Below are positions 26,701-60,940 of a stretch of DNA of 64,000 nt, piece after piece (position 1 is the first letter of the stretch; every line of letters begins with the position of its first letter). Origin of the DNA: Owenia fusiformis (taxonomy: Eukaryota; Annelida; Polychaeta; Sabellida; Oweniidae); contig CAIIXF020000005.1 in the NCBI GenBank assembly GCA_903813345.2, positions 310,001 to 374,000 on the forward strand, in the 5' to 3' direction. The notes below the pieces were generated by a model. That model was not told where the DNA came from. It worked only from the letters and a program-made list of their open reading frames with translations, and searched no databases. Both the position numbers and the translations under genes were made by a program.

Positions 26701-26828
26701 AATATAATACAGCATTGTCACGGCTTACGCGATAACACTACCACGGTCATGGTAGGATCCTTGCGGAACTTAAAAACACTGAATAACATGGTGACGGTTG
26801 TGGCAGGCATAAGTCTTGCAATAGATAG

Positions 26829-29385: not shown

Positions 29386-29408
29386 ATGTGTGCATTTATA
29401 TTTTTCAG

Positions 29409-29494
29409 TTGTACTAGATTGAGGAATGTCCAGTCTTTGCTGGTAAACAATCCAGAAGGGAAAGATGAAGTTGACTCTATACTCTGCATCTTAG
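29409..29494 (+). CDS. DNAAF9: DNAAF9 exon 1 (first exon seen)
   Basis: It encodes CTRLRNVQSLLVNNPEGKDE through SILCIL and ends in phase 1 at GTACAT. It follows TATTTTTCAG, so a short upstream exon with the start codon probably exists. Alternatively translation starts at the in-frame ATG 29386-29388. Confidence 0.75.
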
Positions 29495-38400: not shown

Positions 38401-41400
38401 TTGAAATATTAAATGTTGAATGCACATTGCCTCTTATTTTTTTCAGAATGTGCCAAACTACATTATATAATGTATGTCTCAGAAACCTGCACATAGAAAT
38501 ATGGTTCATGACTTTAATTATGTCTGTTTTTAGGCTGAGGATGATGTTAAAATGTGTCTGGAGGCAAGTTGTAAGAAGAGAGATGTTTCCTTGCCAGCAT
38601 CCTTTTGGTCTAATGCACATGTAGACTTCAGAATAGACGCTGTAGATAATCATGGAAGGTTGGTACTATTTGAATAGGGGCCCTTTACCGATCTACATAA
38701 CATCTAACCTCGCATATAACTGCTGTTAGAAATAAAATATCTGCAACTGTTTTATATTATAATTAGACATATGTGATATTAATGTAATGAGAATTTCATG
38801 AGATTATATCAACAATGATGAGTAACTAATGAAGCTTTGACATTCAAGGGACATGCTAGTAAAACGAAATGATACTATCTTGTGCCAAATTGGAATAAAA
38901 ATCAGTACAAAACCTCTTGTGCTAAATTGATTCTTAGATTCTATCAATGCTGTAATTTTATGATGCATAGACCTATGAAGAGGAAATACATTGGTTTGAT
39001 TTCAGGAGTGTTTCCATTACTGACAATGAGTCTTTAAAGATGGTGAAATATGCCTGCCTGACACTGTATGATGTTCCTAGTGTTGAACATAAGGGAGACA
39101 CACTGGGCTCCCTTGTCTTTGGGGAATCATTCTTAGAATCCAGCATACAAGTTATATGTGCAGGTAAGTATTGTGGATGTGTACAGGGTGGGTCGAAATG
39201 TTGAGTTTGAGCTCTTTATAACATTTAGTATTCATTTTAAAATTGATTGACACTTTTTGGCCTACCTTATACATGTATTATTTTAAAAATACTGTTAACT
39301 GTAGTGTTAAACATGATTTTTACTTATCTATAAAATGATGATATTTGGTATACCTCTGCTCATATTATAGAATAATGATAATGCTTCTTGTCCTTGCAAA
39401 TGATGCAAAGCAACCTCTGCTTTCCAGATGGCAGCAAAAGATTGGACAGTGAGCTTACAGTATTAACCAGAAATGTGCCAAGGTTCATAACATGGACAGT
39501 AAGGATATATTTCTCAAAAGAAATGAATTAAATATAAATAATCAAAAATCTTGTGTAGCTAAGTTGGAGGATCTTGCAATTGACATAAATAGATTTGGGA
39601 TCTTATTTGAATAAGCTGGAAGATCCAATGTAGATCAATTTGTGGAACTTCAATTTTGCAACTCAATGTCTTCTATGCATTCTATAGAAATGAGAATGAA
39701 ATGATTCCAATACAATTGTAGACACCAAATGAAGAACAAGGGCTTGTAGAGAGAATGAAACAACTCACTCAACAGAGTACTGAGAAGCAACAATTTGGCA
39801 GAGTTCTCATAGACCAACAATCAGCAAAGATGCTCAGTGACACTAACCTCTGTAACCCCGATGAAGGTATGAACTGCAATTGTCTGCATGTTATTTATAG
39901 TTACTCACATAGATAGCAAACCCCTACAAACCATGTCAACAGCACTCAAGTCATAGATTTATCAATTCATCAGAAGCATTTAATGAATCATTGAAAAGGA
40001 GTTAGTTTGATAAGTGATATTGATAAGTGTTTCATTGTTTTTCCAGGGGAGTTGACACTGTATGAGCGAAGCATTGTTTTCATCAACAGTCGCCATGGCC
40101 CTACATTGCTTCCCCTTGATCAGTTTGAATCTCTTTCATTCTATGATGGCGTGAGTATCATTAATTATCTTACCAAACATAGTTCATAAGGGATACTGAA
40201 AAGCTGTCAATATGTCTGTTAACACTATGATATCAGAAAGGAACAATAGTAGGAGGTTGTATTAGGTATCATTGGAAATGTTATTCAATCCCCAGTATTT
40301 GAGTTTACTTATAATTACAGGGTGGGCTAAAAAAATTGGAGTATTTTGAGCTTACTTATAATTACAGGGTGGGCCAAAATATTGGAACATTTGTTCCATC
40401 CATTGTAATTTTTTGTTTACCTGGCTATTACATGAAATGTTCAAAATGATGAGTGATTTGATAAATATATTTTGTTTAGCAGGATTTGCTACTCCTTTGA
40501 GTTGCAGTTTTTCTAGTATTTTTTTTATTTATTTTATTGTGTGATAAAAATAATTAACATTTTGTGTATAGAGTGATAACTTTTTTCGGAAATCATAGCA
40601 ATACTTCGCAGTCAAATTATAAGTTACAGCGGATTCAAAAACTGAATGTTCTCAATATTATTTTGCATTTTAGGATTCACCAAGTGTTGTAGCATTTGTA
40701 ATTATAAGATACAACAAAGAGCTATGTAGTAGCCTCCCTTCCCATCTCAATGTTGTTTTGCATTTCAGGATTCACCCAGTGTTGTAGCATTTGTAATTAT
40801 AAGATACAACAAAGAGCTATGTAGTAGCCTCCCTTCCCATCTCCAGAGTCCATCCAGCACAATCATTCTAGCCCTCACTCCTAAATCAAAGGCATACAAA
40901 GCTTTCTTCAGAGAGGTAAGTTAGGATCTACTAAACTACAGTTTAGAGGCATCATAATTGTGGGTGAGGCCAAGCAACTGTCTCACCAAAATTTACAAAA
41001 ACATATATTCTCTGATGCTAAATCTGTAGAAATTAAGTCCAGCAATTTGCCTGACCTATTGATTTTTGCCTCACCTGGCTATGCCTATTAAGCCATTAAC
41101 TCTAACTGCAAAATTAAGTTTAGTCATGTTTGTGTGTGTCAGTCATCAGTAATCAGCAACCCTTTGTTTAAAAGATCCAGATTTCCGCCCCAATATAAAT
41201 GCTTTTATAATAAATTAGGGATGGTTCAATAGATCTTAGAGATAGTATATACATTAAAGTTATTTATTAAGAGATTACATATGTTTAAAGTATTTGCATA
41301 TGTCAAAGAGTTGGCATATGCGACAGAGATAGCATGTATTTAAGATTTTTCATATGTTATTAGGTGCTGCCTTTATGGAGGAAAGAGTCTCACACACCAT

Positions 41401-44400
41401 CAATGGAACTTCTTACTGAACTACATGACAACATTAAACAATTGTAAGTTACACATTTTATTTGAAAACACAGAATAAAATTGGCAGCTAATATAGTCTG
41501 ATATGATTCAGGTTTCCTGTATCCATCATTAGTGAACAAAAACATCGTCTCTTGTTATGTTCTCTGTTACCATGCCATTGACAACATCAATGAACGGTCA
41601 TTGATTGCTTATTATCCCATTGAACGAAGTTCAGAGGGATATAGGGAACGCCATCTGTCTGTCTGTCTGTCTGTCTGTCTGTCCGGGCAATAACTCAAAT
41701 GCCATTGGCCCAATTTTGTTCATATTTTGTACACATATACATGATTGAAGTAGAAGTTCTGCTCGAAAGCCGATTTTCAAAATGGCTGCTCATTTAAAAA
41801 TGGCGGCCTTTGTAGTGCCGATTTTACAATAATTTAGGTACAATATGTAAAAGTGTAATAGCAATATGTTTTAAATGTCAAAAATTATATAGGACATTTA
41901 ATAAAGCTAAAAATGTAGATATCAAAGAAGCACATGGCAGCCATCTTGAAAAATGGTGGCCTTTACACGCTGTTTTACGATTTTTGCTGTTACTCGAAAA
42001 GTAGTGGAGAAATTTTGTTCATATTTAGTATGTGAATACTATAAGCATGGAACACTGTCTAATGACACTTTTTGTAGAAATAACGTTTTTTACTATAACT
42101 CGAAAAGTAGTGGATCAATTTTGTTCATATTTGGTATGCGAATACTATTACAATGGCATACTGTTTAATGACACTTTTGGAAGAAGGCGCCCATTTTGAA
42201 AAATGGCCGTCATTTTTACGTGTTTTACTATAACTCAAAAAGAAGTGGAGCGATTTTGTTCATATTTGATATGTGAATACTTATAAACACGGCACACTGT
42301 CTTACGACATTTTGGCAAGTAGGTGGCCATTGACATGTTTGTGTGTGCGACTTTGTTGAAATATTACATATACATTTTCTGTTATTTCATATTGCACTTT
42401 CTTATGACAATTTGTGGTGTGTTAATTTACGATTTTTGCTTTATACTTCGTTTGTAAAAATGCCAGCCATGTCTGTACGATGGGATTTGCTTTGGTGTTG
42501 CTGTTGTCTAGTTTACATGATGATTTATCTATTTTTATGATATATCAATTGCATATATATACATTGGATTGGTTAAAAACTATTCAGAATGTAACATTTC
42601 TTCTGCAGGCATTCACATCTACAGCTCCAATACACCAACACAACATCAGCTAAAGCCACCCCACTGAAAAAAGCTGTTGCAAATCTGCCAAATCTTCACA
42701 CATTTCTTGATCATTTCGAAGGCTCAAGTGTATCTAGTTTGGACGTGTCCTATAAGGATGTGAACATATTAACCAAGAGACCATACGACAGTGGCAACTT
42801 TGATGATTCAAATCAGGTTTGTAGAATTTAAAGGAGCGAAAGTGATAGAGACAAGTATAAAAAGATTTTACAATATTTTTCCAAGTTGTTCCTATTTTCT
42901 AAGAAATCAAACTTAAAGGAACATTCCTGGCCAAACCTTTTCTATCCTGATGTAATAGCTATAATCATATATATACTTTCCATATTTAGCAAAACACCAG
43001 GAAATGTTTTAATATAGTCAATATTGATAATTTAAAAATGTAGGAGAGAAATGGTCTGGCCAGGCCTTTAATATAGGGATACCATCATTCATTTATTAGC
43101 GTTATCTGGCTATTGTTTTGAAAAAGGGAAAAAGAAGACAATGTTACTGTCTGGTTATTTCTATTTTATGGTTTGATAATATTACTTTTGTTTGGTGGAA
43201 TTTGCTACAGGGCTAGTTCCTGTTTTTCAAGTTTTGAGTATGTTCACCATCATGACAAGGTTACTTTATTGTTGCTTACAGTTAGTGGTAACCATCCTGA
43301 CAGGGGTACCAGGAAGTCATAAAGAGAATCTCTGTACAACTCTTGCTAACCTCTCCAAGGAAGAGGGAAGGTGGGTTCAATTCATACATGTTATAGTACT
43401 AGAATTAATAATTTAATAACTTATCATAAAAATATATAACATATTACACTTTGGATCATATGCTTCAGTATTGTATGTTAGGCCATATGCTTCAATATTG
43501 CATGTCAGGCCATATTTTTCAATATTGCATGTTAGGCCATATGCTTCAATATTGCATGTTAGGCCATATGCTTCAATATTGCATGTTAGGCCATGTGCTT
43601 CAATATTGCACTTTGGTTCATATGCTTCAATATTGCACTTTGGATCATATCCTTCAATATTGCGTGTTAGACCATATGCTTCAATATCGCATGTCAGGCC
43701 ATATTTTTCAATATTGCATGTTAGGCCATATGCTTCAATATTGCATGTTAAGCCATATGCTTCAATATTGCATGTTAGGCCATATTTTTCAATATTACAT
43801 GTTAGGCCATATGCTTCAATATTCCATGTTAGGCCATGTGCTTCAATATTGCACTTTGGTTCATATGTTTCAATATTGCATGTTAGACCATATTTTTCAA
43901 TATTTCGTGTTATGCTTCAATATTGCATGTAAGACCATATGCTTCAATATTGCAGTAAGACCATATGCTTCAATGTTGTGTGTTAGGCCTTATACTTCAA
44001 TATCGCACTTTGGGTCATATGCTTAAATATTGCAGTTTGGGTCATATGCTTCAATATTGCACTGTGGGTTGTGTTTTTCCAAAGTCCTAATTTACAAGAA
44101 TGGCTGACCTTTATTACCTTACACTGTATGAACTTGTATTTTAGGTGGGTTGTGTTGAGGCAGCCACTAGACAACACTGAAGCATTTAATGCTGAGAGTC
44201 TCCATGGCTCCCTCTACCAAACATACCACGCACAGAAGAAACGCAAACCAGGGTCAGCTGCAACTAAACGCAAGATGAGAGCTTTAATTGTCACTCCTGG
44301 GTCAGTAGAATTTGACTTTTGGGTGTTAGTGGCTTACAGTGAGCTTATGGGATTGATTAGGTGTCCTTGCTTTGGTCCATTCATCACTCAGTTGCCCATT

Positions 44401-47400
44401 TGTCCATCCATGAACATTGGTGGTAGAAATATTAATCTTATCTTAATTATTTTATGGTTATCTATGGTACAATATACAATTGTAGACATCTCTTGAGGTC
44501 AACTGGCAAAATTGTATACCCATACTGTAAACCTTGAAAGTACTGTTGACTGACCGCAGCACTTTCAGGGTTTACAGTATCGGTATACACTTTTGCCAGT
44601 TGACCGAATAGAGAGGTTAACAATTGTTTTGTTGATCTAGGAATATTATTATAAATGGAAAGATATATTATCGAATATAACGTGAGACATATTTTAGCAA
44701 AAAATCCCCAAACCATTGAATATCACTTCTAAAAACGTAGTTTGATTTTCAATTTTTTATTAATACTGCAAAATGAAAAACGATTTTTAAAAAAAATTCA
44801 AATTTTCTTTAATATATTTTTTTTTATATTAAAAAAGAATAAAAAAAAATGTATTTTTTTTATATTTTCAAATTTAAAATTTAAAAAAGTAGCGATCAAC
44901 AGTACCTAGTAGCGGTCAACAGTATACAATTCTTGACCTCTCCAGAGGTCAACCGGCAAAATTGTATACTGAGACTGTAAACCGAGAAACTATTGTTGAC
45001 AGAGACCGAAGGTCTACAATTGTTTTGTTAGTCTGAAGAAACTAATAATACACATAAAGACAACAATCATCAATCGGCATGGCATCATTTCACAACCTTT
45101 TCTCCGAACCACATTAGCAATATTTTTTTAGAAAATCTGAAGACAGTGTAAGTAGCTAAACTCTCTGTATTCGGCACATCACGGCGTACTCATTAGTAAA
45201 TTAATGTTAATTTTACGTTTCTATTTGTATTTTTGCTATAGTAAAGTCAAAATATCATTTTCATCAACGTTTACACATGTTACAAAATGTCCGTCTTTCA
45301 TGTTTTTTGTGACGTCATGAAACTTTTTTTCAAAAGTAGCGGTCAACAGTACCTTGTAGCGGTCAACAGTATACAAAAAGTGACTGCCATTGAGGGCAAT
45401 TGTGTAAATTATTTTTACAATAGTACATTGTAGAGGATATTCCCAAGGGGAAATCATTTTCACTATTGCTCGAAATTAGGCAGTCACTATTTGTTTTATT
45501 ATATACCCTATACTGACTCTTGTCCCGTTTCCTCTGCGAAGGCCAAAAAGGCTTAGAAAGCCCCCTCCCCGGGTCCATTGTTAGCATTATAAGCTGTGAC
45601 GTCATCAGATGCTCAACAGAAATTTTTGCCTCTGACACTCTCACTTGACAAATTCAATCGCGTTTAACACGCGGAATAGATTATCATAACACTTGAAATC
45701 ACACAGACGTATTTAGCTTAGGGAACTTTATACACGTTGCTTATACTGTATCGTTCACGTACGTCTGTCATGGTGAACGGAGTTGATTTGTGTTTGTGCT
45801 CATCCTCCATTTTTCTGTTTTTCGTCTGCGCAGTGATGATGACGTTTCCAAGGGTAATAGAAGTTGCAATCGTGACGTCAGCGGGCAATAGTTCAAATGT
45901 ATATTCCCGCTGACATCACATTTGAGGGAATATAACTTTCCGAGGGAAATAGTAAATCTATTTTGGAACACGTGACTCGGTATTGACCAATCAGGATTAG
46001 TGTTACATATTTAAGGAATAAAGACGGATGATATGGCGTGATATATGACTGAAAAATTTATTCTGTTCATTGTTAAAAGACCGAAATCGCGTAGCAATTG
46101 ACATGATTGAGGTCTTTGGCAATGGCCAGAATAAAATTTGAGGTCATATATTTGACATAAATCATAAAATCGAGGTTTTTGTTACGATTCTAATATGATA
46201 AACAGACAAGAAAAACAAATATTTGCATTTATGAATTTTAGTGGTCATACATACTCAATATAGACCAGTAAATCAATTGTTCTTGTTATTGTCACATATC
46301 ATATTAGAATAATGAATATATCCAAGTTAATGAAAGCCTTGTTAATTAAAGCACCTGCTTTAAAATTACAGGTTCACAGATATAGTAGAAGTGGTCCGTG
46401 CTGTGATGACCCATCCAGATAAAGAGGTGTTGATGAACCTTAGAATAGGAGCTGTAACAGCATGTGTTGACCCACTCAATACATACATGCAAGACAGGTA
46501 TGTGGACATTTGAATAGTTGCTGTAACAGCATGTGTTGACCCACTCAATACATACATGCAAGACAGGTATGTGGACATTTGAATAGGAGCTGTTACAGCG
46601 TGTGTTGACCCATTCAATACATACATGCAAGACAGGTATGTGGACATTTGAATAGTTGCTGTTACAGCATGTGTTGACCCACTCAATACATACATGCAAG
46701 ACAGGTATGTGGACATATGAATAGGAGCTGTAACAGCATGTGTTGACCCACTCAATACATACATGCAAGACAGGTATGTGGACATATGAATAGGTGCTGT
46801 AACAGCATGTGTTGACCCACTCAGCACATACATGCAAGACAGGTATGTGGACATATAAATAGGTGCTGTAACAGTGTGTGTTGACCCACTCAATACATAC
46901 ATGCAAGACAGGTATGTGGACATTTGAATAGGTGCTGTAACAGCATGTGTTGACCCACTCAATACATACATGCAAGACAGGTATGTGGACATTTGAATAG
47001 GTGCTGTAACAGCATGTGTTGACCCACTCAATACATACATGCAAGACAGGTATGTGGACATTTGAATAGGTGCTGTAACAGCATGTGTTGACCCACTCAA
47101 TACATACATGCAAGACAGGTATGTGGACATTTGAATTGGAGCTGTAACATCATGGGTTGACCCACTCAATACATACATGCAAGACAGGTATGTGGACATT
47201 TGAATAGGTGCTGTAACAGCATGTGTTGACCCACTCAATACATACATGCAAGACAGGTATGTGGACATTTGAATAGGTGCTGTAACAGCATGTGTTGACC
47301 CACTCAATACATACATGCAAGACAGGTATGTGGACATTTGAATAGGTGCTGTAACAGCATGTGTTGACCCACTCAATACATACATGCAAGACAGGTATGT

Positions 47401-50400
47401 GGACATTTGAATTGGTGCTGTAACAGCATGTGTTGACCCACTCAATACATACATGCAAGACAGGTATGTGGACATATGAATAGGTGCTGTAACAGCGTGT
47501 GTTGACCCACTCAATACATACGCGCAAGACAGGTATGTGGACATTTGAATAGGTGCTGTAACAGTGTGTGTTGACCCACTCAATACATACATGCAAGACA
47601 GGTATGTGGACATTTGAATAGGTGCTGTAACAGCATGTGTTGACCCACTCAGTAAATACAAGCAAAACAGGTATGTGGACATTTGAATAGGTGCTGTAAC
47701 AGCATGTGTTGACCCACTCAATACATACATGCAAGACAGGTATGTGGACATTTGAATAGGTGCTGTAACATCATGGGTTGACCCACTCAATACATACATG
47801 CAAGACAGGTATGTGGACATTTGAATTGGAGCTGTAACAGCATGTGTTGACTCACTCAATACATACATGCAAGACAGGTATGTGGACATTTGAATAGGTG
47901 CTGTAACAGCGTGTGTTGACCCACTCAATACATACATGCAAGACAGGTATGTGGACATTTGAATAGGTGCTGTAACAGCATGTGTTGACCCACTCAATAC
48001 ATACATGCAAGACAGGTATGTGGACATTTGAATAGGTGCTGTAACAGCGTGTGTTGACCCACTCAATACATACATGCAAGACAGGTATGTGGACATTTGA
48101 ATAGGTGCTGTAACAGCATGTGTTGACCCACTCAATACATACATGCAAGACAGGTATGTGGACATTTGAATAGGTGCTGTAACAGCGTGTGTTGACCCAC
48201 TCAATACATACATGCAAGACAGGTATGTGGACATTTGAATAGGTGCTGTAACAGCATGTGTTGACCCACTCAATACATACATGCAAGACAGGTATGTGGA
48301 CATATGAATAGGTGCTGTTACAGCATGTGTTGACCCACTCAATACATACATGCAAGACAGGTATGTGGACATATGAATAGGTGCTGTAACAGTGTGTGTT
48401 GACCCACTCAGTACATACATGCAAGACAGGTATGTGGACATATGAATAGGTGCTGTAACAGCATGTGTTGACCCACTCAATACATACATGCAAGACAGGT
48501 ATGTGGACATTTGAATAGGTGCTGTAACAGCATGCGTTGACCCACTCAATACATACATGCAAGACAGGTATGTGGACATTTGAATTGGAGCTGTAACAGC
48601 ATGTGTTGACCCATTCAATACATACATGCAAGACAGGTATGTGGACATTTGAATTGGAGCTGTAACAGCATGTGTTGACCCACTCAATACATACATGCAA
48701 GACAGGTATATGGACATTTGAATTGGTGCTGTAACAGCGTGTGTTGACCCACTCAATACATACATGCAAGACAGGTATGTGGACATTTGAATAGGTGCTG
48801 TAACAGCATGTGTTGACCCACTCAATACATACATGCAAGACAGGTATATGGACATTTGAATTGGTGCTGTAACATCATGGGTTGACCCACTCAATACATA
48901 CATGCAAGACAGGTATGTGGACATTTGAATTGGAGCTGTAACAGCATGTGTTGACCCTCTCAATACATACATGCAAGACAGGTATGTGGACATTTGAATA
49001 GGTGCTGTAACAGCATGTGTTGACCCACTCAATACATACATGCAAGACAGGTATGTGGACATTTGAATAGGAGCTGTTACAGCATGTGTTGACCCACTCA
49101 ATACATACATGCAAGACAGGTATGTGGACATTTGAATAGGAGCTGTTACAGCATGTGTTGACCCACTCAATACATACATGCAAGACAGGTATGTGGACAT
49201 TTGAATAGGTGCTGTAACAGCATGTGTTGACCCACTCAATACATACATGCAAGACAGGTATGTGGACATTTGAATAGGAGCTGTTACAGCATGTGTTGAC
49301 CCACTCAGTACATACATGCAAGACAGGTATGTGGACATTTGAATTGGTGCTGTAACATCATGGGTTGACCCACTCAATACATACATGCAAGACAGGTATG
49401 TGGACATATGAATAGGAGCTGTAACAGCATGTGTTGACCCACTCAATACATACATGCAAGACAGGTATGTGGACATTTGAATAGGTGCTGTAACAGCATG
49501 TGTTGACCCACTCAGTACATACATGCAAGACAGGTATGTGGACATATGAATTGGAGCTGTAACAGCATGTGTTGACCCACTCAATACATACATGCAAGAC
49601 AGGTATGTGAACATTTGAATAGGTGCTGTAACAGTGTGTGTTGACCCACTCAATACATACATGCAAGACAGGTATGTGGACATTTGAATAGGTGCTGTAA
49701 CAGCATGTGTTGACCCACTCAATACATACATGCAAGACAGGTATATGGACATTTGAATAGGTGCTGTAACAGCATGTGTTGACCCACTCAATACATACAT
49801 GCAAGACAGGTATATGGACATTTGAATTGGTGCTGTAACAGCGTGTGTTGACCCACTCAATACATACATGCAAGACAGGTATGTGGACATTTGAATAGGA
49901 GCTGTTACAGCATGTGTTGACCCACTAAATACATACATGCAAGACAGGTATGTGGACATTTGAATAGGTGCTGTAACAGCATGTGTTGACCCACTCAATA
50001 CATACATGCAAGACAGGTATGTGAACATTTGAATAGGTGCTGTAACAGTGTGTGTTGACCCACTCAATACATACATGCAAGACAGGTATGTGGACATTTG
50101 AATAGGTGCTGTAACAGCATGTGTTGACCCACTCAATACATACATGCAAGACAGGTATATGGACATTTGAATAGGTGCTGTAACAGCATGTGTTGACCCA
50201 CTCAATACATACATGCAAGACAGGTATATGGATATTTGAATTGGTGCTGTAACATCATGGGTTGACCCACTCAATACATACATGCAAGACAGGTATATGG
50301 ACATTTGAATAGGTGCTGTAACAGCATGTGTTGACCCACTCAATACATACATGCAAGACAGGTATGTGGACATTTGAATAGGTGCTGTAACAGCATGTGT

Positions 50401-53400
50401 TGACCCACTCAATACATACATGCAAGACAGGTATGTGGACATTTGAATAGGTGCTGTAACATCATGGGTTGACCCACTCAATACATACATGCAAGACAGG
50501 TATGTGGACATTTGAATAGTTGCTGTAACAGCATGTGTTGACCCACTCAATACATACATGCAAGACAGGTATGTGGACATTTGAATTGGAGCTGTAACAG
50601 CATGTGTTGACCCACTCAATACATACATGCAAGACAGGTATGTGGACATATGAATAGGAGCTGTAACAGCATGTGTTGACCCACTCAATACATACATGCA
50701 AGACAGGTATGTGGACATTTGAATAGGTGCTGTAACAGCCTGGGTTGACCCACTTAATACATACATGCAAGACAGGTATATGGACATTTGAATAGGTGCT
50801 GTAACAGCATGGGTTGACCCACTCAATACATACATGCAAGACAGGTATGTTGACATTTGAATAGGAGCTGTAACAGCATGTGTTGACCCACTCAATACAT
50901 ACATGCAAGACAGGTATGTGGACATTTGAATTGGTGCTGTAACATCATGGGTTGACCCACTCAATACATACATGCAAGACAGGTATATGGACATTTGAAT
51001 AGGTGCTGTAACAGCATGGGTTGACCCACTCAATACATACATGCAAGACAGGTATGTGGACATTTGAATAGGAGCTGTAACAGCATGGGTTGACCCACTC
51101 AATACATACATGCAAGACAGGTATATGGACATTTGAATAGGTGCTGTAACAGCATGGGTTGACCCACTCAATACATACATGCAAGACAGGTATATGGACA
51201 TTTGAATAGGTGCTGTAACAGCATGGGTTGACCCACTCAATACATACATGCAAGACAGGTATATGGACATTTGAATAGGTGCTGTAACAGCATGGGTTGA
51301 CCCACTCAGTACATACATGCAAGACAGGTATGTGGACATTTGAATTGGTGCTGTAACATCATGTGTTGACCCACTCAATACATACATGCAAGACAGGTAT
51401 GTGGACATTTGAATTGGTGCTGTAACAGCATGTGTTGACCCACTCAATACATACATGCAAGACAGGTATGTGGACATTTGAATTGGAGCTGTAACAGCAT
51501 GTGTTGACCCACTCAATACATACATGCAAGACAGGTATGTGGACATATGAATAGGTGCTGTAACAGCGTGTGTTGACCCACTCAATACATACATGCAAGA
51601 CAGGTATGTGGACATATGAATAGGTGCTGTAACAGCATGTGTTGACCCACTCAATACATACATGCAAGACAGGTATGTGGACATTTGAATAGGTGCTGTA
51701 ACAGCATGTGTTGACCCACTCAATGCATACATGCAAGACAGGTATGTGGACATTTGAATAGGTGCTGTAACAGCGTGTGTTGACCCACTCAATACATACA
51801 TGCAAGACAGGTATGTGGACATTTGAATAGGTGCTGTAACAGCATGTGTTGACCCACTCAATACATACATGCAAGACAGGTATGTGGACATATGAATAGG
51901 AGCTGTAACAGCATGTGTTGACCCACTCAATACATACATGCAAGACAGGTATGTGGACATTTGAATAGGTGCTGTAACATCATGGGTTGACCCACTCAAT
52001 ACATACATGCAAGACAGGTATGTGGACATTTGAATTGGAGCTGTAACAGCATGTGTTGACCCACTCAATACATACATGCAAGACAGGTATGTGGACATTT
52101 GAATAGGTGCTGTAACAGCATGTGTTGACCCACTCAATACATACATGCAAGACAGGTATGTGGACATATGAATAGGAGCTGTAACAGCATGTGTTGACCC
52201 ACTCAATACATACATGCAAGACAGGTATGTGGACATTTGAATAGGTGCTGTAACATCATGGGTTGACCCACTCAATACATACATGCAAGACAGGTATGTG
52301 GACATATGAATTGGAGCTGTAACAGCATGTGTTGACCCACTCAATACATACATGCAAGACAGGTATGTGGACATTTGAATAGGTGCTGTAACAGCATGTG
52401 TTGACCCACTCAATACATACATGCAAGACAGGTATGTGGACATATGAATAGAAGCTGTAACAGCATGTGTTGACCCACTCAATACATACATGCAAGACAG
52501 GTATGTGGACATTTGAATTGGTGCTGTAACATCATGGGTTGACCCACTCAATACATACATGCAAGACAGGTATGTGGACATTTGAATTGGAGCTGTAACA
52601 GCACGTGTTGACCCACTCAATACATACATGCAAGACAGGTATGTGGACATTTGAATTGGAGCTGTAACAGCATGTGTTGACCCACTCAATACATACATGC
52701 AAGACAGGTATGTGGACATTTGAATTGGAGCTGTAACAGTATGTGTTGACCCACTCAATACATACATGCAAGACAGGTATGTGGACATTTGAATTGGTGC
52801 TGTAACATCATGGGTTGACCCACTCAATACATACATGCAAGACAGGTATATAGACATTTGAATAGGTGCTGTAACAGCATTTGTTGACCCACTCAATACA
52901 TACATGCAAGACAGGTATGTGGACATTTGAATAGGTGCTGTAACAGCGTGTGTTGACCCACTCAATACATACATGCAAGACAGGTATGTGGACATTTGAA
53001 TAGGTGCTGTAACAGCATGTGTTGACCCACTCAATACATACATGCAAGACAGGTATGTGGACATTTGAATTGGTGCTGTAACATCATGGGTTGACCCACT
53101 CAATACATACATGCAAGACAGGTATGTGGACATTTGAATAGGTGCTGTAACAGCATGTGTTGACCCACTCAATACATACATGCAAGACAGGTATGTGGAC
53201 ATTTGAATTGGAGCTGTAACAGCATGTGTTGACCCACTCAATACATACATGCAAGACAGGTATGTGGACATTTGAATAGGAGCTGTAACAGCGTGTGTTG
53301 ACCCACTCAATACATACATGCAAGACAGGTATGTGGACATATGAATAGGAGCTGTTACAGCATGTGTTGACCCACTCAATACATACATGCAAGACAGGTA

Positions 53401-56400
53401 TGTGGACATTTGAATTGGTGCTGTAACATCATGGGTTGACCCACTCAATACATACATGCAAGACAGGTATGTGGACATTTGAATAGGTGCTGTAACAGCA
53501 TGTGTTGACCCACTCAATACATACATGCAAGACAGGTATGTGGACATATGAATAGGTGCTGTAACAGTGTGTGTTGACCCACTCAGTACATACATGCAAG
53601 ACAGGTATGTGGACATATGAATAGGTGCTGTAACAGCGTGTGTTGACCCACTCAATACATACATGCAAGACAGGTATGTGGACATTTGAATAGGTGCTGT
53701 AACAGCATGTGTTGACCCACTCAATACATACATGCAAGACAGGTATGTGGACATTTGAATAGGAGCTGTAACAGCGTGTGTTGACCCACTCAATACATAC
53801 ATGCAAGACAGGTATGTGGACATTTGAATAGGTGCTGTAACAGCATGTGTTGACCCACTCAATACATACATGCAAGACAGGTATGTGGACATTTGAATAG
53901 GTGCTGTAACAGCATGTGTTGACCCACTCAGTGCATACATGCAAGACAGGTATGTGGACATTTGAATAGGTGCTGTAACAGCATGTGTTGACCCACTCAA
54001 TACATACATGCAAGACAGGTATGTGGACATTTGAATAGGTGCTGTAACATCATGGGTTGACCCTCTTAAAGAGACATTCCTGGCCAGACCATTTCTGTCC
54101 TCATATATATATACATTCCGTCAATTTAAAAATGGTGTGGTGACTGAACAGTACTTAAAAAACAGAATGCCCAGACAACACAGGAGAATACTTGCTCAGT
54201 TCCGAACAGGAAGTCTCCACTTAAATATAGAGACAGGTAGATGGAACAATACACCGCTGCAAGAACGAAAATGTATTCTCTGTGATAATGATTGTATTGA
54301 GGATGAGATACACTTTTTGACTCAATGTGAACATTATAAGGACATAATGAAAGAGTTTTATGACAATGTTAAAGTAACAGCCCCCCATATAAACATTAAC
54401 TCAAATGATGGCCTGGGTACACTGATCAGTCTTATACATGACAAAAACATCCAAAATTTATTGGCTTCAACTCTATTTAAAATGTGGCAAAAAAGGAAAT
54501 TCAATATTGAGAGGGTCTGAAATGATCAAAACAACTGCTCAACAGATATTTATTCTAGTCAACTTAAAATGCTTACTCTAAAAACATGCTGATATTATAT
54601 TTGAACAGTGCAATAATTGTATATTATAGAATAGTATATTTATTTATTATTTAATGGACATTGTTCCAGATGGTAGAAGGACCTAAGTGTCTCATAAGCC
54701 GACACCGGCTGGTAGTGTTTTAGTTTACTTTGTATTTGACATTGTATGTATACTTTTAACACTAGTGACACTATAATAAAATATTTTAATAATAATAATA
54801 ATAATATATATTTAGCAAAACACAGGAAATGTTTTAATATAGTCAATATTGATCATTTAAAAATGTGGTGTTCATTTCCAGTAAGCTGCCATCTTTTAAG
54901 ATTTCACTCAGGAAGTGATGTCATTGACTCTCAACCTTCATAACCTTACCTATATCAGTATAGGAAAATAGCACAAAAACACTTCTAGACAAGGGGTCCT
55001 TATTTTAAGTGCAAAAATATTTTCAGAGCTTGTCAGCTTAGAATAAAAGGAGAGACTCTTAGAAGGATTAAATCATAGACAAACTTGAAAAAGAATATTC
55101 AGCTTGTTTTGTAATTCTTAATAGCTCCTTACCCAAGGCTATATGTAAAGTTGAGAGTCGATTACATCAATTTCTGAGTGAAATCTTAAAAGATGGCAGC
55201 CTTCTGGAAATGAGCACTACGTTTTTAAATGATCAATATTGCCCATATCAAAACATTTTTCTGTGTTTTTGTAAACATGGAAAATATATATATGATAATT
55301 GCTACCATCTTTTAGGAGGTCTGGCAAGGAATATACCTTTAATACATACATGTAAAATATGTATGTGGACATTGAATATTTTCAGGTTGACACTACCTCA
55401 CCTCCTTGAGCAATGTGGTCAGGGTTGGGTGAATATTTACACAAACATGTACTAGTAATTCATTTTCAGGTTGACACTACCTCATCTCCTTGAGCAATGT
55501 GGTCAGGGTTGGGTGAATAATATTGTGTTTACCAGCTCCTTGAACCCAAAGAACCAGGACTTAGCAGATGTCCAGCATCTCATTAGGGCTGTCAATTCAG
55601 ATGTAGCCCTACTACTGGCACCAAAAGGAGAGGTTACCAGGTGAGAATATTCAAAAGTTGATCATTTAATGGTCATTTATTAGTGTCACAGAAAAAAACT
55701 ACACTGTTGCACTTTCTGAGGTTCATTTAGCATAAAGTCAATTGGGATAAAACATTCAATTTCTTAAATTGTTTTAGATGTTCACCCATCCCACGATTAA
55801 TTTCACAGTAATAAATTATAGAGTAACACTTATTTTATTTCAGCTGTAATAGAACATTAAATTGTTCCACTTGTTTTAATTTTCACAGAATGCGTAATTG
55901 TTTCCCAAACTCAAATTACCAAGATTAAATGAGATGTTTTTGTTTTCTAAATTTTGCAATATTGTTATTTGTACACAATGTTTCATTGGCAGGAAACCCC
56001 CAAAGGTGTTCATAACAGCCTTAGAATGTAATTGTTTTGATTTATATTGATGTATGTTTATTCCAGGACCCCTGATTTGGATCTTATCCTGTCAGACACA
56101 GCCTATAACAGAAATGATCTTGCCAGAGCACGTCATCTCTCATACCCTGGCTGGTGAGTTCGCAGATTTCATTATTACACTTAATAAGTTACGGGCCCTC
56201 TAAGGCTCATGAAGCATGAACACCCCGTGTATTGTTTCAGTTAATACATAAGGATTCAATAAGAAAAACAGACGAAAAACAATTTTGATATGATTTAAAT
56301 ACAACTTTCTCACATAATCAAAATACAATTTTGTTACATTATCATATTATTGAATTAAAATACTGCACTTAACTCAAAAAAAGACTCTGATTTTTATTTG

Positions 56401-58801
56401 TGGTATTCATTCATAAGTAATGCAGAAGTGACAAAGGGAAAGGACCAAATATTGTTACAGAACACAGCAAGAAAAAGAAAACACCTAACTGTACACCAGT
56501 CATAAGGTGTGTTGTTTATTGTTTCAGGTCAATTTGTGTCTTCATTAGAGACAGACTAGAGCCCACCATGCAGGAGACATGCCTTAGTAATAGTAAATTG
56601 TATTCTATGTTTATTGTTTCAGGTCAATTTGTGTCTTCATTAGAGACAGACTAGAGCCCACCATGCAGGAGACATGCCTTAAGTTCTCACAACCACTAGA
56701 TAGACAGAGGTTTGCTTCTCGGTTGAGAGGTATGTTCTTATATTCTTCATTAAAGGGGCAACAAAGACTGGAGAGGGTAAAACTTTGGAAGTATTTTTCA
56801 AAAAGCATGTCAGTGTTTCCCATACACATCTTCATTGAGGTATCTGCTCAAATATAGAATTAATTGAAGATTAAGATGCAGAAATGCACAAATCCATTAG
56901 ATTTGAAAAGGGGGAGTTCTGTCAGATAACCATAAGATCAAAAGATGTCAAAATAAAGCTATTTAAGGAATTTTTATTTAGAAATAAACAATAGAACTAT
57001 GAGAGCAGAAATGTTTTAAAATGGAAAAATAAAGAGATTATTATTAGGAACAAAAGAGCATGTAAGAATAGCTCAAGCATAAAACAACTGTGAAGTGTTG
57101 ATATACTTTTCTGTAGGTTTGAAGGCATTACTGAAGAGGAACTCCTTTGAAGGAAATATATATGTAGTGAAAGGCAGATCAAGATTTACAGGTTAGTAAG
57201 GGAGTAAAATGATTTGACTTACAGCTAAGTGGGGCTCAGACACTTTCATGATTTCTCGTGATAAAAACAAACATGAATGGTTATACATGCAAAAGTGCCG
57301 AAAGGTAAAATGCAGATTATTACAAAATACACCAAGGAAAACAAACCATTATATCCAAAAGTATGATCTAATTGATAACTTCATTCTCAGAGTTAACATG
57401 GTTAAGCTATACATTAAAACTAATTCATAAATAAATGAAAATGTTGCTTTCAGACTCACAGAGTATGATGGAGTTTGAGTATGTGACGTTGAGTGGGTCA
57501 CTGAGTCTAGTCCCTGCGGAGGTACAGCCCACCCCTCCCTCTAGGAGTAATGGACCATCCACACAAACCAATGGCCACTCTAACTGTACTGTGTTCATAG
57601 GAGTTGACCTTCAGGAAGAAGTTCTCAAGAACTGGCTGAGGCAATGTGCTCCACAGGTTTGCAACATCACTTGCTGAATTCAAAATTGCTCTCTTTAGGA
57701 TCGAGGAGTAATACAAATTTTCTGACCTCTACTCAAACTACTGACTGTATTAATATTTCTATCATGTTATGTCGAAAATGACAAGTGATTTGACGAAACA
57801 TGTTTTGTGGATTTATTCTTCAGAAAGCTGCTATTTACTAGTTCAGTTTTGTTGTTTGTTTACACCCCCAAAATGCAATCTGATTTTTGACGCCGTTTCA
57901 GTGCCAAATTTCGGCACCAAATGGACTGACTAGTTCGGTAGTAAATTTTTGTGTCGGAAGGTTTCGGTGCCGAAACGGTGCCGGAACAGTGCCGAACTTT
58001 TTCGATGCCGAAACGGCGTCAAATTATATTGGCTGTGTAGAGATTGGTCATTCACCAAATATGCCATTTACTTTGTAGAAACCTGTTAAGAAGAACCACA
58101 AGAAAAAGTTTGATCTGACACCAGCAGAGAAACAGAAGATACATGTAAGTAAAAGCAGGAATTAATGAAAGATACATGTAAGTAAAAGCATGAATTAAAA
58201 GTTCACTCACAAGAACATACAACGGTTTTTCAGTAAATGTTTTTACATCTTATCCTTAAATGTTGCCTTTCCAAAATTTTTGAAACCAATACAATTTCTC
58301 TATAATATGCTAATATGCAATACTGTGTATTGTATCTTACAGAAGGACCATCACCTAGAGCCTCCCCCTGAAGGATGGTTCTACAATGGAACACATTTTG
58401 TCTGTATGACTGGAGAGAAATCTGACAAACACCCTGGTATGCTAAAAAAATTGTTTATGACAGTCTATTCTTAAAGAATTGAAGTCAAGGTTTAATTGGA
58501 TTGTGTTGCCTTAATACTCCAGTCTAATTTGTCATAATCATGACTTTTTGGAAAATCATACAGTGTGTCTCATTGAACTTTTTGTAAGTGTAACATTTTT
58601 TGAGGCACACTGTAGTTATTAATGTCTCATTATTCCTAGCAACATTTAGTGAGATGTTAATTTTACCAAAAAATAAAACTTTTTCTATTTTTTGCAGATA
58701 TGGATAAATTCATAGCTGATTACCTGACTGAAGTGAACAATAAAATTGATAAACACAATGCTGACATTGATGCTCAAGTATATCTGGATCTCTTTGACTA
58801 G
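29409..58801 (+). CDS. DNAAF9: DNAAF9 (C20orf194/Shulin homologue), gene span
   Basis: DNAAF9 is a cytoplasmic factor that packages outer-arm axonemal dynein before delivery to cilia (known from Tetrahymena Shulin and human DNAAF9). I placed 30 exons by homology to the vertebrate protein with GT-AG borders. All phases join, giving 3,439 coding bases; human has about 1177 residues. Diagnostic blocks include IDSRYNDGTRELVDYLLF, YLLPYIAHWRN, WPIVQAFALEG, GQHAKHM, VSPKGPL, TLYDVP, SFYDG, TGVPGSHKENL, GAVTACVDPLNTYM, SYPGW, NWLRQCAP and EGWFYNGTHFV. The start is uncertain: the first exon seen has a good acceptor (TATTTTTCAG), but an in-frame ATG at 29386 would give 1153 residues without a further exon. 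The introns are rich in minisatellites, several of which include splice junctions. Confidence 0.93.
29583..30053. mobile_element. MITE with mariner/pogo-like termini in intron 1
   Basis: The 471-bp element starts TACAGTAGAACCGGTATATC and ends in the reverse complement of TACAGTAAAACCTGTCTAAT. The interior repeats [A/T]ATCTGAACAC words. It shares one terminus with the fragment at 16799-16880. The TA ends fit Tc1/mariner/pogo insertion. Confidence 0.85.
30185..30275 (+). CDS. DNAAF9: DNAAF9 exon 2
   Basis: Acceptor TTTGCAG; encodes IDSRYNDGTRELVDYLLFDF and on to AEIEK, one of the best-conserved blocks. Donor is GTTAGT after GAAAA, which restores EKSGY with the next exon. Confidence 0.93.
30671..30699 (+). 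CDS. DNAAF9: DNAAF9 exon 3 (microexon, 29 bp)
   Basis: Encodes SGYPEEVID; acceptor TTTTTCAG, donor GTAAGT. The short exon is supported by phase on both sides and by the matching EEVLDD segment of the vertebrate protein. Confidence 0.9.
31562..31686 (+). CDS. DNAAF9: DNAAF9 exon 4
   Basis: Encodes MIVLVKKQCVHVYCNPINY then LLPYIAHWRNL through TDEK. The exon start ATATGATTGTGC has three look-alikes in the preceding 85 bases of intron (near 31484, 31521 and 31543). A G14 run lies downstream in the intron at 31915-31928. Confidence 0.94.
32205..32301 (+). CDS. DNAAF9: DNAAF9 exon 5 (first donor of the repeat array)
   Basis: Encodes FQDEEYAEEFKIHSFVTM then TTGCSMIGIPYNST; acceptor GATTTCAG. The last 22 bases and the donor CAG|GTAAGA are repeated downstream every 48 bp, so the 3' border given here is only the first of seven in-frame options. 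Confidence 0.9.
32280..32625 (+). repeat. Splice-donor minisatellite, block 1 (48-bp unit, 7 donors)
   Basis: The unit is 22 bp of exon 5 (GGAATACCTTATAACAGTAC, then AG) plus 26 bp of intron (GTAAGAATGC to ATCATA). Donors lie at 32302, 32350, 32398, 32446, 32494, 32542 and 32590; the fourth and seventh read CAT|GTAAGA instead of CAG|GTAAGA. The period is a multiple of three and the exon frame stays open through the block, each unit adding 16 residues (GKNANFNIIGIPYNST). Confidence 0.95.
32626..33481. mobile_element. 856-bp DNA transposon splitting the exon-5 repeat array
   Basis: Termini are inverted repeats starting TAGTCATATAAATC[C/T]GACC. The 9-bp repeat-unit sequence GAATACCTT flanks both sides (32617-32625 and 33482-33490) as target duplication, a length seen in Mutator-like elements. 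A second pair of inverted repeats lies inside (about 32844-33279, containing CATGTAAAACGCTTG), either subterminal repeats or a nested element. Inserted after the array had formed. It brings an in-frame stop (TAA at 32634-32636) for any read-through of block 1. Confidence 0.88.
33482..34473 (+). repeat. Splice-donor minisatellite, block 2 (48-bp unit, 21 donors)
   Basis: This continues block 1 beyond the transposon. Donors run from 33503 to 34463 at exact 48-bp spacing. Most read CAG|GTAAGA; those near 34079, 34127 and 34463 read CAT|GTAAGA. The array ends where the unit changes at GCAACACCATGCC. The 358-codon open frame over it is a by-product of the period. Confidence 0.95.
34474..35386. other. 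Remainder of intron 5
   Basis: No coding sequence is recognised. A 51-bp hairpin at 35183-35233 pairs AGTATTACCATGGGCTTTCA with its near-perfect complement; the rest is AT-rich intron. Confidence 0.6.
35387..35465 (+). CDS. DNAAF9: DNAAF9 exon 6
   Basis: Encodes GQKLVFDKMVIERWPIVQ then AFALEGFG, a highly conserved block. Acceptor CATTACAG, donor GTTTGT. Confidence 0.94.
35673..35778 (+). CDS. DNAAF9: DNAAF9 exon 7
   Basis: Encodes GGFFTMHHEVVDVSHSVSKL then YDLMDPVFLETIITE; acceptor GTCTTTTAG, donor GTAAGC. Confidence 0.93.
35983..36140 (+). CDS. DNAAF9: DNAAF9 exon 8
   Basis: Encodes RVRLFEGQWGTMLSTVDIER and ends at ARSNK; acceptor TATTTCTAG, donor GTAAGT. FEGQWGT corresponds to FEHQWTS of vertebrates. 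Confidence 0.92.
36465..36807. mobile_element. MITE made of TCAAGCTTGATT repeats in intron 8
   Basis: AGCAAACATTTCTCAA at the left end is inverted at the right end (TTGAGAAATGTTTGCT). The interior consists of degenerate copies of a near-palindromic word, TCAAGCTTGATT, so the whole element can fold on itself. Confidence 0.75.
36890..37031 (+). CDS. DNAAF9: DNAAF9 exon 9
   Basis: Encodes LESQRQPYVLFGSHSSKATL and ends GGQHAKHM at donor GTGCGT. PYVLFGSHS and GGxxAKHM match vertebrate DNAAF9. Confidence 0.94.
37416..37540 (+). CDS. DNAAF9: DNAAF9 exon 10
   Basis: Encodes VCQAVSPKGPLCCARSYFF through DKTDSSDI; acceptor CATTACAG, donor GTAATG. Confidence 0.94.
37930..38014 (+). CDS. DNAAF9: DNAAF9 exon 11
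   Basis: Encodes LLNSLYLCMVEAVASSIETY then AQTLSLSK; a helical segment. Acceptor TTTTTGTAG, donor GTAGGT. Confidence 0.92.
38074..38374. repeat. 49-bp minisatellite in intron 11
   Basis: About six copies of a unit with AGGCATAACCAGGGTAGGCA, then AATAGGCAAGCCAAATTAGA; spacing is exactly 49 bp between 38123, 38172 and 38221. It is wholly intronic. Confidence 0.95.
38534..38658 (+). CDS. DNAAF9: DNAAF9 exon 12
   Basis: Encodes AEDDVKMCLEASCKKRDVSL through DAVDNHG; acceptor TGTTTTTAG, donor GTTGGT. Confidence 0.92.
39006..39163 (+). CDS. DNAAF9: DNAAF9 exon 13
   Basis: Encodes SVSITDNESLKMVKYACLTL then YDVPS and GSLVFGESFLESSIQV; acceptor GATTTCAG, donor GTAAGT. The TLYDVP and GSLVFGESFL blocks match the vertebrate protein. 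Confidence 0.94.
39428..39498 (+). CDS. DNAAF9: DNAAF9 exon 14
   Basis: Encodes DGSKRLDSELTVLTRNVPRF then ITWT; acceptor TTTCCAG, donor GTAAGG. Confidence 0.92.
39722..39866 (+). CDS. DNAAF9: DNAAF9 exon 15
   Basis: Encodes TPNEEQGLVERMKQLTQQST through LCNPDE; a charged, poorly conserved stretch. Acceptor AATTGTAG, donor GTATGA. Confidence 0.88.
40047..40150 (+). CDS. DNAAF9: DNAAF9 exon 16
   Basis: Encodes GELTLYERSIVFINSRHGPT through FESLSFYDG; acceptor TTTTCCAG, donor GTGAGT. Confidence 0.93.
40651..40840 (+). repeat. 95-bp tandem duplication across the exon-17 acceptor
   Basis: Copy 1 (40651-40745) and copy 2 (40746-40840) each contain TTTTGCATTT[T/C]AG followed by the first 72 bases of exon 17 (GATTCACC...). 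Copy 1 has its own AG acceptor at 40672-40673. Splicing there would insert 95 bases, shift the frame and meet a stop within the second copy, so only the copy-2 acceptor (40768) yields the conserved protein. Confidence 0.93.
40769..40915 (+). CDS. DNAAF9: DNAAF9 exon 17
   Basis: Encodes DSPSVVAFVIIRYNKELCSS and continues to KSKAYKAFFRE; acceptor GCATTTCAG, donor GTAAGT. Its 5' half exists as an additional truncated copy 95 bp upstream. Confidence 0.92.
41364..41443 (+). CDS. DNAAF9: DNAAF9 exon 18
   Basis: Encodes VLPLWRKESHTPSMELLTEL then HDNIKQ; acceptor GTTATTAG, donor GTAAGT. Confidence 0.92.
41640..42310. repeat. Dispersed repeat with GTCT microsatellite and 100-bp units
   Basis: It begins near GAAGTTCAGAGGGATATAGG, followed by (GTCT)n at about 41659-41682, then GGGCAATAACTCAAATGCCA. 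Three diverged units of roughly 120-150 bp follow with the core AATTTTGTTCATATTTGGTA. As I recall, this arrangement is common in marine invertebrate, notably mollusc, genomes; it is one of the few taxonomic hints here. Confidence 0.7.
42609..42816 (+). CDS. DNAAF9: DNAAF9 exon 19
   Basis: Encodes HSHLQLQYTNTTSAKATPL through NLPNLHTFLDHFEG and SGNFDDSNQ; acceptor TTCTGCAG, donor GTTTGT. Confidence 0.92.
42917..43067. mobile_element. 151-bp MITE with TTAA target duplication (complete copy)
   Basis: TTAA at 42913-42916 and 43068-43071 flanks AGGAACATTCCTGGCCAAAC...GGTCTGGCCAGGCCT, whose ends are inverted repeats. It is an unbroken relative of the element at 54070-55338. Confidence 0.88.
43282..43370 (+). 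CDS. DNAAF9: DNAAF9 exon 20 (P-loop-like segment)
   Basis: Encodes LVVTILTGVPGSHKENLCTT then LANLSKEEG. The strand-loop-helix pattern ILTGVPGSHKEN resembles a nucleotide-binding P-loop but lacks the canonical GK[ST], as does the vertebrate protein, so binding is doubtful. Acceptor TTGCTTACAG, donor GTGGGT. Confidence 0.92.
43453..44069. repeat. 27-bp minisatellite in intron 20
   Basis: About 22 copies of a unit with CATATGCTTCAATATTGCAT then GTTAGGC. The period is divisible by three, which produces overlapping open frames (up to 191 codons) that are not genes. Variant units replace GCTTCA with TTTTCA or end in CACTTTGG. Confidence 0.96.
44145..44300 (+). CDS. DNAAF9: DNAAF9 exon 21
   Basis: Encodes WVVLRQPLDNTEAFNAESL then HGSLYQTYHAQKKRKPGS and KMRALIVTPG; acceptor TGTATTTTAG, donor GTCAGT (weaker than the rest). 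Phase and homology support it. Confidence 0.9.
44460..45375. mobile_element. Compound inverted-repeat region in intron 21
   Basis: A 109-bp hairpin (44497-44605) pairs GGTCAACTGGCAAAATTGTA with its complement. Related words, GGTCAACCGGCAAAATTGTA near 44951 and TAGCGGTCAACAGTATAC near 44912 and 45355, recur across 900 bp. It looks like a cluster of related fold-back elements. Confidence 0.6.
45376..46371. other. Rest of intron 21
   Basis: No exon is recognised. It includes an imperfect inverted motif around TATTCCCGCTGACATCACAT near 45900. It ends in the acceptor AAATTACAG at 46363-46371. Confidence 0.5.
46372..46497 (+). CDS. DNAAF9: DNAAF9 exon 22 (source of the 69-bp array)
   Basis: Encodes FTDIVEVVRAVMTHPDKEV then LRIGAVTACVDPLNTYMQD, matching the vertebrate GAITACVEPMSCYM block. 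Its last 55 bases and the donor CAG|GTATGT are the seed of the array that follows. Only this first donor keeps the frame: the repeat reads YVDI and a TGA just after it. Confidence 0.94.
46443..54065 (+). repeat. Splice-donor minisatellite, 69-bp unit, 110 donors
   Basis: The unit is the last 55 bp of exon 22 (GAATAGGAGCTGTAACAGCA to CAAGACAG) plus 14 bp of intron (GTATGTGGACATTT). Donors run from 46498 to 54019, 7,521 bp, exactly 109 x 69 with no net indel. Variants are substitutions at a few places (TTGAATAGG or TTGAATTGG; GGTGC, GGAGC or GTTGC; ACAGCATGTG or ACATCATGGG). The ACATCATGGG marker recurs every 276 bp from about 51979 to 53083, a four-unit higher-order repeat. A last degenerate unit is split by the TTAA element and resumes at 55343 (AATACATACATG..GTATGTGGACAT). 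Confidence 0.97.
54120..54806 (+). mobile_element. 5'-truncated LINE tail nested in the fold-back element
   Basis: Comparison with the intact element at 42917-43067 shows extra sequence between ATTCC and ATATTTAGC. The insert contains the end of a retrotransposon ORF, a 3' UTR and a terminal AAT microsatellite (about 54786-54805), the usual form of a 5'-truncated non-LTR retrotransposon. Confidence 0.82.
54137..54520 (+). pseudogene. C-terminal part of a non-LTR retrotransposon ORF2
   Basis: The open frame of 127 codons (the frame is also open upstream to the insertion edge) includes RTGSLHLNIETGRW, CILCDNDCIEDEIHFLTQCE, then HYKDI. This is the pattern RxGxxxLxxExGR..CxxC..xEDExHFLxxCxxY, the zinc-binding tail found after the reverse transcriptase domain in many animal LINEs. 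The polymerase part is absent, so the copy is dead. The undisturbed frame suggests a young insertion. Confidence 0.82.
55383..55469 (+). repeat. 84-bp duplication across the exon-23 acceptor (upstream copy)
   Basis: CAG|GTTGACACTACCTCACCTCC at 55386 repeats at 55470 with one substitution over the first 56 exon bases. Reading on from the upstream acceptor meets TAG (ATG TAC TAG) before the real exon. The upstream copy can therefore only be a decoy or pseudo-exon. Confidence 0.93.
55470..55640 (+). CDS. DNAAF9: DNAAF9 exon 23
   Basis: Encodes LTLPHLLEQCGQGWVNNIVF through HLIRAVNSDVALLLAP and EVT; acceptor CATTTTCAG, donor GTGAGA. It matches the vertebrate DQCSQG and SLIRAAN blocks. Confidence 0.94.
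56067..56153 (+). CDS. DNAAF9: DNAAF9 exon 24
   Basis: Encodes TPDLDLILSDTAYNRNDLAR then ARHLSYPG; acceptor TTATTCCAG, donor GTGAGT. Confidence 0.93.
56513..56681 (+). repeat. 95-bp tandem duplication across the exon-25 acceptor
   Basis: TTTATTGTTTCAG followed by the first 59 bases of exon 25 (GTCAATTTGTGTCTTCATTA...) occurs at 56528 and again at 56623. Use of the first acceptor would add 95 bases and shift the frame to an early stop. The first copy ends CTTA|GTAATA, which by chance looks like a donor, so a 59-bp pseudo-exon is conceivable but also frame-shifting. Confidence 0.93.
56623..56729 (+). CDS. DNAAF9: DNAAF9 exon 25
   Basis: Encodes SICVFIRDRLEPTMQETCL, then FSQPLDRQRFASRLR; acceptor ATTGTTTCAG, donor GTATGT. 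The region is shorter than in vertebrates after SYPGW. Confidence 0.9.
57117..57191 (+). CDS. DNAAF9: DNAAF9 exon 26
   Basis: Encodes LKALLKRNSFEGNIYVVKGR then SRFT; acceptor TTTCTGTAG, donor GTTAGT. FxGNIYxxxG matches vertebrates. Confidence 0.93.
57454..57656 (+). CDS. DNAAF9: DNAAF9 exon 27
   Basis: Encodes SQSMMEFEYVTLSGSLSLVP, a Pro/Ser/Asn-rich linker, then CTVFIGVDLQEEVLKNWLRQ and CAPQ; acceptor GCTTTCAG, donor GTTTGC. Confidence 0.94.
57887..58023. mobile_element. Small MITE with TGACGCCGTTTC termini in intron 27
   Basis: TGACGCCGTTTC at the left end is the complement of GAAACGGCGTCA at the right end. The interior is built of GTGCC/GGCAC words and is locally GC-rich. Size is about 137 bp. 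Confidence 0.75.
58079..58144 (+). CDS. DNAAF9: DNAAF9 exon 28
   Basis: Encodes KPVKKNHKKKFDLTPAEKQK then IH, a basic segment; acceptor CTTTGTAG, donor GTAAGT. Confidence 0.92.
58137..58198 (+). repeat. 33-bp tandem duplication across the exon-28 donor
   Basis: AGATACAT|GTAAGTAAAAGCA occurs at 58137 and 58170, each copy with the exon end and the donor. Use of the second donor would add 33 bases that include an in-frame TAA, so only the first is productive. Confidence 0.93.
58343..58436 (+). CDS. DNAAF9: DNAAF9 exon 29
   Basis: Encodes KDHHLEPPPEGWFYNGTHFV then CMTGEKSDKHP, matching the conserved vertebrate GYFYNGTQFV block; acceptor TCTTACAG, donor GTATGC. Confidence 0.95.
58698..58801 (+). 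CDS. DNAAF9: DNAAF9 exon 30 (terminal)
   Basis: Encodes MDKFIADYLTEVNNKIDKH and ends YLDLFD with stop TAG at 58799-58801; acceptor TTTTTTGCAG. The acidic YxDLF ending matches the HDLFE end of vertebrate DNAAF9. Confidence 0.95.
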
Positions 58802-60244: not shown

Positions 60245-60940
60245 TAATATTTATAATTGATAAATGTATATATTGTTTAATTTGACCTACAATATTTGCA
60301 CAAGGTACATTCTACTGTATAGTTGTAAGAAATAAGTAATAAGATTATAGCCTAGTTGTAGAAATAATACTAGCTAGTTATCTTTTATGGATTTTATATT
60401 TAACATGTGTACAACACATTTCTTCAGGTACACCTTACTATGTGTACACCTCCTGTCCAATTTTGGTGTTCCATTGCCAATTGATATATTGTCACCACTT
60501 TTTGTGAATACCTGGTAATATGCTAGTATGTAGTAAGAGCTGTGTCCAGTATAAAAGCAAAAGATAGGGTCATGTGATGGCATTCTTCCATGCACTTTAT
60601 TGTATCCAATCCACTCATGTAATACACGCAAATGTATAGCCTATACAAAAGTCACTAAAATTTACTGCTGTGAGTTACAAATGTAAATATCAGATTCTAG
60701 ATTGATTTTTTTGTTTGTTTACTGTAAATGCTTGTTATTGTATAAAGTTGAATGAAATATAAATTGAATTGCAAAGAAAAACATTAAAATTGTTATACAT
60801 TTTGTTATTCAAAAGAATGAAAATCTTCAGAATCAATTGGTTACTTCATTTCTTAGTTCATATTGTATGATACTTAACTACCAATTATGTAGGGTTGTAA
60901 TCCACTTGCATGTTTTATTGCACCATTGGGTACTGTATAG
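60245..60940. other. Intergenic AT-rich stretch
   Basis: No gene or repeat is recognised before the minisatellite. Confidence 0.45.

Follow-up and report, generated by a model that had tools for sequence, protein, structure and literature searches.

We found that the end of coding exon 23 of the DNAAF9 gene of Owenia fusiformis is repeated in tandem, together with its splice donor, at an even spacing of 69 bp, and that this array does not stand alone: six junction-spanning duplications, this one included, occur in the gene. The array is probably a neutral intronic satellite that was founded by a tandem duplication crossing the exon/intron junction and is spliced out from its first donor. All positions refer to the window, that is, the whole 64-kb stretch of DNA that was analysed, in which the gene and the array are placed as follows.

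24793..58801, + strand: DNAAF9 coding span, 31 coding exons, 1171 aa (mapping of the protein P0001, joined model and Pfam)
46372..46497, + strand: coding exon 23, 126 bp, whose last 55 bp are the source of the 69-bp unit
46443..54063, + strand: 69-bp array of 110 full units plus a partial unit, with its first donor at 46498
46498..55469, + strand: intron 23, containing the 69-bp array, 8972 bp to the conserved acceptor and 8888 bp to the upstream acceptor copy

An earlier note, made from the sequence alone, had assigned the gene to DNAAF9 and the repeated piece to its exon 22. The assignment of the gene was borne out by the Pfam DAAF9 families and by the mapping of P0001, a 1176-aa protein deposited for Owenia fusiformis that was the best protein match to a rough translation of the exons among the matches listed (120 of 360). 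In this translation, DAAF9_2 (301.3 bits), DAAF9 (147.5 bits) and DAAF9_N (68.5 bits) scored above the curated cut-off, and CobW_C_DAAF9 scored slightly below its cut-off of 27 with the rough translated query (26.3 bits). Mapped back, P0001 is encoded in the window over its entire length. For the joined DNAAF9 model the conserved acceptor was chosen at both exon 18 and exon 24. The model has GT-AG ends at 30 of 30 introns and shares 99.7% identity with P0001 across 1169 aligned residues; homologues align over its full length. The number of the exon had to be corrected, as the mapping of P0001 gives coding exon 23 of 31 as the source, and position 46498, given before as the first donor, is the first base of the intron, the last base of the exon being 46497. 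Close counterparts of the peptide encoded by the unit's exonic bases occur in the aligned homologues, which identifies the gene exon as the source and the satellite as the copy.

TRF, run on the 64-kb window, reported the array with a period of 69, 110.4 copies, 95% matches and 0% indels, and cutting in 69-bp steps from position 46443 yielded 110 full units and one partial unit, all arranged head to tail as copies of one unit within the intron. Each unit consists of 55 exonic bases from the end of the exon (ending in CAG) and 14 intronic bases (starting with GTATGT). The units align without gaps, each deviating from the consensus at 5 or fewer of its 69 positions, so that there is no net indel in the array. 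We counted 56 distinct sequences among the 110 units, with a mean pairwise identity of 0.957. The donor GT is intact in 110 of 110 units (0 lost), and the donor 9-mer is CAGGTATGT (CAG|GTATGT) in 97 units and CAGGTATAT (CAG|GTATAT) in the remaining 13. All 97 occurrences of CAGGTATGT on the + strand of the window lie inside the array, and this 9-mer ranks second best among the 30 donors of the gene under a matrix built from those same donors. Read-through past the donor meets a stop within 5 codons in 110 of 110 units. The earlier note had thus rightly described the even 69-bp spacing of the donors, the composition of the unit, the lack of net indels and the in-frame stop after the donor, whereas its claim of a good CAG|GTATGT donor in every unit holds for 97 of 110, the other 13 being weaker.

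At its 3′ end the array breaks off in the middle of a unit against unrelated sequence, and the original start of the intron is therefore no longer visible. Adjoining this cut end, at 54064..54806 (+ strand), lies what we take to be a retroelement-like 3′ fragment; it has an AAT-repeat tail, and a Pfam search with its reading frame returned no match. An open frame on the minus strand (46366..54120, 2584 aa) spans the whole array; it stays open across the array because 69 is a multiple of 3, and it is probably meaningless.

The 22 variable exonic columns of the unit are divided 7/7/8 over the three codon positions, which gives no sign of coding constraint in the copies. Variable columns make up 1 of 9 in the donor compared to 27 of 69 overall (p = 0.064). 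The donors of the array are not decayed, and the copies, judged by their sequences, look neutral. Neighbouring units were not significantly more alike than shuffled ones (identity 0.9584 vs. 0.9567, p = 0.11), and the order of the units contains no repeated blocks beyond chance (longest, 3 units; shuffles reach 4). Local slippage would usually leave another pattern, although short-read polishing of a repeat could scramble the variants.

We folded the native exon and three consensus units and observed that the donor GTATGT pairs with the preceding ACATGC in a small hairpin, which at the native donor comprises 6 bp (46485..46503); folding z-scores were −1.70 and −0.57. ACATGC is kept in 108 of the 110 units, and the hairpin was rejected as a marker of the first donor because, being common to the units, it cannot single out the first. 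A recursive splice site was likewise rejected: AG|GT is present in 110 of 110 units, but a pyrimidine tract is absent and the 20 preceding bases are mostly purines.

The satellite would have been founded by a short tandem duplication across the exon 23/intron 23 junction. A duplication on the donor side would leave the first exon end intact and push the extra copies into the intron, and amplification to about 110 copies, all of them on the intron side, would have followed, probably by unequal exchange. The first donor directly follows the intact exon of 126 bp and precedes all the others in transcription, and exon definition would pick it; the array would then be removed within one intron of about 9 kb, with the other 109 donors acting as tolerated decoys. 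P0001 joins exon 23 from the first donor of the array, in line with the expectation of the earlier note. P0001 is a protein model; given that the later donors truncate the product, such a model could hardly show any donor other than the first, is no proof of preference, and cannot reveal unproductive isoforms, and the choice of the first donor in real RNA is inferred. According to earlier work cited in passages of PMC5585400, when two donors compete, SRSF1 promotes use of the intron-proximal donor, hnRNP A1 that of the distal donor. The preference of SRSF1 would predict a later donor, against the choice of the first, and the 69-bp array sets exon definition and first-come commitment against the intron-proximal-donor rule.

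The 69-bp array is not the sole donor array of the gene; another, with a 48-bp unit, lies at 32273..34474.

32273..32625, + strand: 48-bp donor array, first block, at exon 6; 7 donors (5 CAGGTAAGA, 2 CATGTAAGA), all in frame, the first at 32302
32626..33481, no strand assigned: element inserted in the 48-bp array, 856 bp, with inverted ends and a 9-bp target duplication
33482..34474, + strand: 48-bp donor array, second block; 21 donors (18 CAGGTAAGA, 3 CATGTAAGA)

No stop lies ahead of any of the seven in-frame donors of the first block, so that each 48-bp step would add 16 residues to the protein. P0001 still takes the first donor although seven are permitted, which makes the 48-bp array a better test of donor choice than the 69-bp array.

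Local duplications were identified at six junctions of DNAAF9, comprising the two donor arrays, one donor pair and three acceptor pairs, and at each of the six the duplication spans an exon/intron junction. The four pairs are the following.

40650..40843, + strand: acceptor duplication at exon 18, 99 bp matched, offset 95, 96% identity
55378..55519, + strand: acceptor duplication at exon 24, 58 bp, 98% identity, 26-bp spacer
56513..56681, + strand: acceptor duplication at exon 26, 74 bp, 100% identity, 21-bp spacer
58136..58198, + strand: donor duplication at exon 29, period 33, 1.9 copies

In the exon 26 pair, P0001 uses the downstream copy. At exon 18, P0001 has an extra DSPS, as would result if 12 nt of the upstream copy were spliced to the downstream copy, with an implied intron at 40686..40768 (83 nt, GT...AG). 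At exon 24, P0001 reads IYTNMYY and the model NNIVFTS, which fits use of the upstream acceptor and a small intron at 55455..55535 (81 nt, GT...AG). In the protein comparison, none of the other 11 aligned homologues shares the change at either exon, and residues confined to P0001 are what would be expected if small new introns arose there. As described in passages of the genome paper, the annotation drew on RNA-seq junctions, ab initio prediction and hints from proteins, and 31,678 of 31,903 transcripts have RNA-seq support (PMC9977687). With such a mixture of sources, each implied intron, at exon 18 and at exon 24, is either newly gained or an error of the P0001 model. Extra copies on the donor side would disappear into the intron, and acceptor-side copies may make small new introns.

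We considered whether the choice among the 110 donors might instead be leaky, with a sizeable share of transcripts spliced from later donors, running into a stop and being degraded, which would lower or tune the output of DNAAF9. The GT kept in 110 of 110 donors, 97 of them identical to the native 9-mer, and the stop after every later donor would suit such a scheme; if it were costly, however, one would expect donors to have been lost, and none of the 110 lacks the GT. The deposited product is moreover the productive one, although a degraded share remains compatible with it, and we regard leaky choice as unlikely. That the array is useful, e.g., as a platform of U1 binding sites that shields the long intron from early polyadenylation, appears very unlikely to us: the low variation of the donor columns (1 of 9) points in this direction, but its p value of 0.064 is not significant, and the +5G is altered in 13 units.

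Two further explanations concern the DNA itself, and we hold each of them to be highly improbable. The copy number or the order of the units might be an artefact of assembling and polishing a repeat, as the lack of indels, the seemingly shuffled unit order and the use of Illumina polishing reported in passages of PMC9977687 could suggest. The same passages give a PacBio read N50 of 25.75–30.75 kb, which is longer than the array, by a factor of at least 3, and 56 distinct units are present, both of which argue against an artefact. Alternatively, the gene might be damaged in the sequenced individual, with no productive donor at all; six affected junctions would be in keeping with such damage, but the reading frame stays open over 1171 aa, each of the 30 introns is GT-AG and the homologues align at full length.

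Comparison with known systems shows a known kind of event, a junction-crossing tandem duplication, taken to an extreme. In the potato RdRp gene, as described in passages of PMC4974935, an intron was gained by a short tandem duplication across a splice junction. The new intron starts at a cryptic donor that lies in what had been exon in the upstream copy, and it ends at the acceptor of the downstream copy. The duplications in DNAAF9 likewise cross junctions, and the P0001 model at exon 18 has the potato layout; compared with what these passages describe, two of the six DNAAF9 duplications are on the donor side and have grown to 110 and 28 donors, and the DNAAF9 introns are implied by a protein model. 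Tandem duplication is also a source of novel introns in Drosophila, where, in passages of PMC2891723, coding sequence with a proto-splice site was duplicated; the duplicated piece is exonic there, whereas existing junctions are spanned here. Small tandem duplications can arise by fill-in at DNA breaks (passages of PMC8355091), a possible origin of the founding duplications; a point of difference is that two of the DNAAF9 pairs have spacers of 21 and 26 bp. Like an intronic minisatellite or satellite (VNTR), the 69-bp array consists of head-to-tail units (~96% mean pairwise identity), but its unit holds the end of the host exon and a good donor, and the array starts inside the exon. Several donors compete for one acceptor here as in the minigenes used with SRSF1 and hnRNP A1 (passages of PMC5585400), whereas the DNAAF9 case is natural and has 110 donors at an even 69-nt spacing in near-identical context. 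No description of a long donor array was found among the titles and abstract openings of the open-licence papers listed.

If the first donor is nearly always used, the array, with donors of near-equal strength, equal spacing and near-identical context before one acceptor, would be a natural experiment beyond any minigene, in which position alone must decide. The 48-bp array with its seven in-frame donors poses the same question in a setting where decay would not mask the outcome, and the acceptor pairs would be candidate new introns seen at an early stage.

We also asked whether junctions are preferred sites of duplication. Within the gene, 6 of 15 duplicated loci lie at junctions compared to 1.64 expected (p = 0.0028), and 6 of 11 when the duplicated unit is at least 30 bp (p = 0.0013); both counts are post hoc, the list of loci having been drawn up after the pattern was noticed. 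The list leaves out TRF rows with a period below 20 (29600, 41654, 57965) and overlapping TRF rows, as well as the far-apart self-matches 25073/26072, 44469/44919 and 44885/45332. In a tiled control, 54 junction windows, 344 intron windows and 38 exon windows were compared, of which 3, 37 and 3, respectively, had a copy nearby (Fisher p = 0.33); this comparison leaves out both donor-array regions and counts intronic arrays several times. With the locus count for and the window control against it, we make no claim of enrichment at junctions. The wider proposition, that splice junctions of Owenia are recurrent seeds of tandem duplication, with copies on the donor side able to grow into satellites of more than 100 reliably ignored good donors and those on the acceptor side becoming new introns, is a tentative one that we consider doubtful; if it is true, DNAAF9 alone shows the full series from two copies to 110.

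The window contains further tandem arrays. A 13-kb array at 2624..15716 has a 92-bp unit in 142 copies with 0% indels, and a run of 14 of its units recurs identically 21 units on; no link of this array to an exon was found. A 27-bp array (~23 copies) lies in intron 21 at 43457..44061, and a 39-bp array (~46 copies) lies downstream of the gene at 60926..62690.
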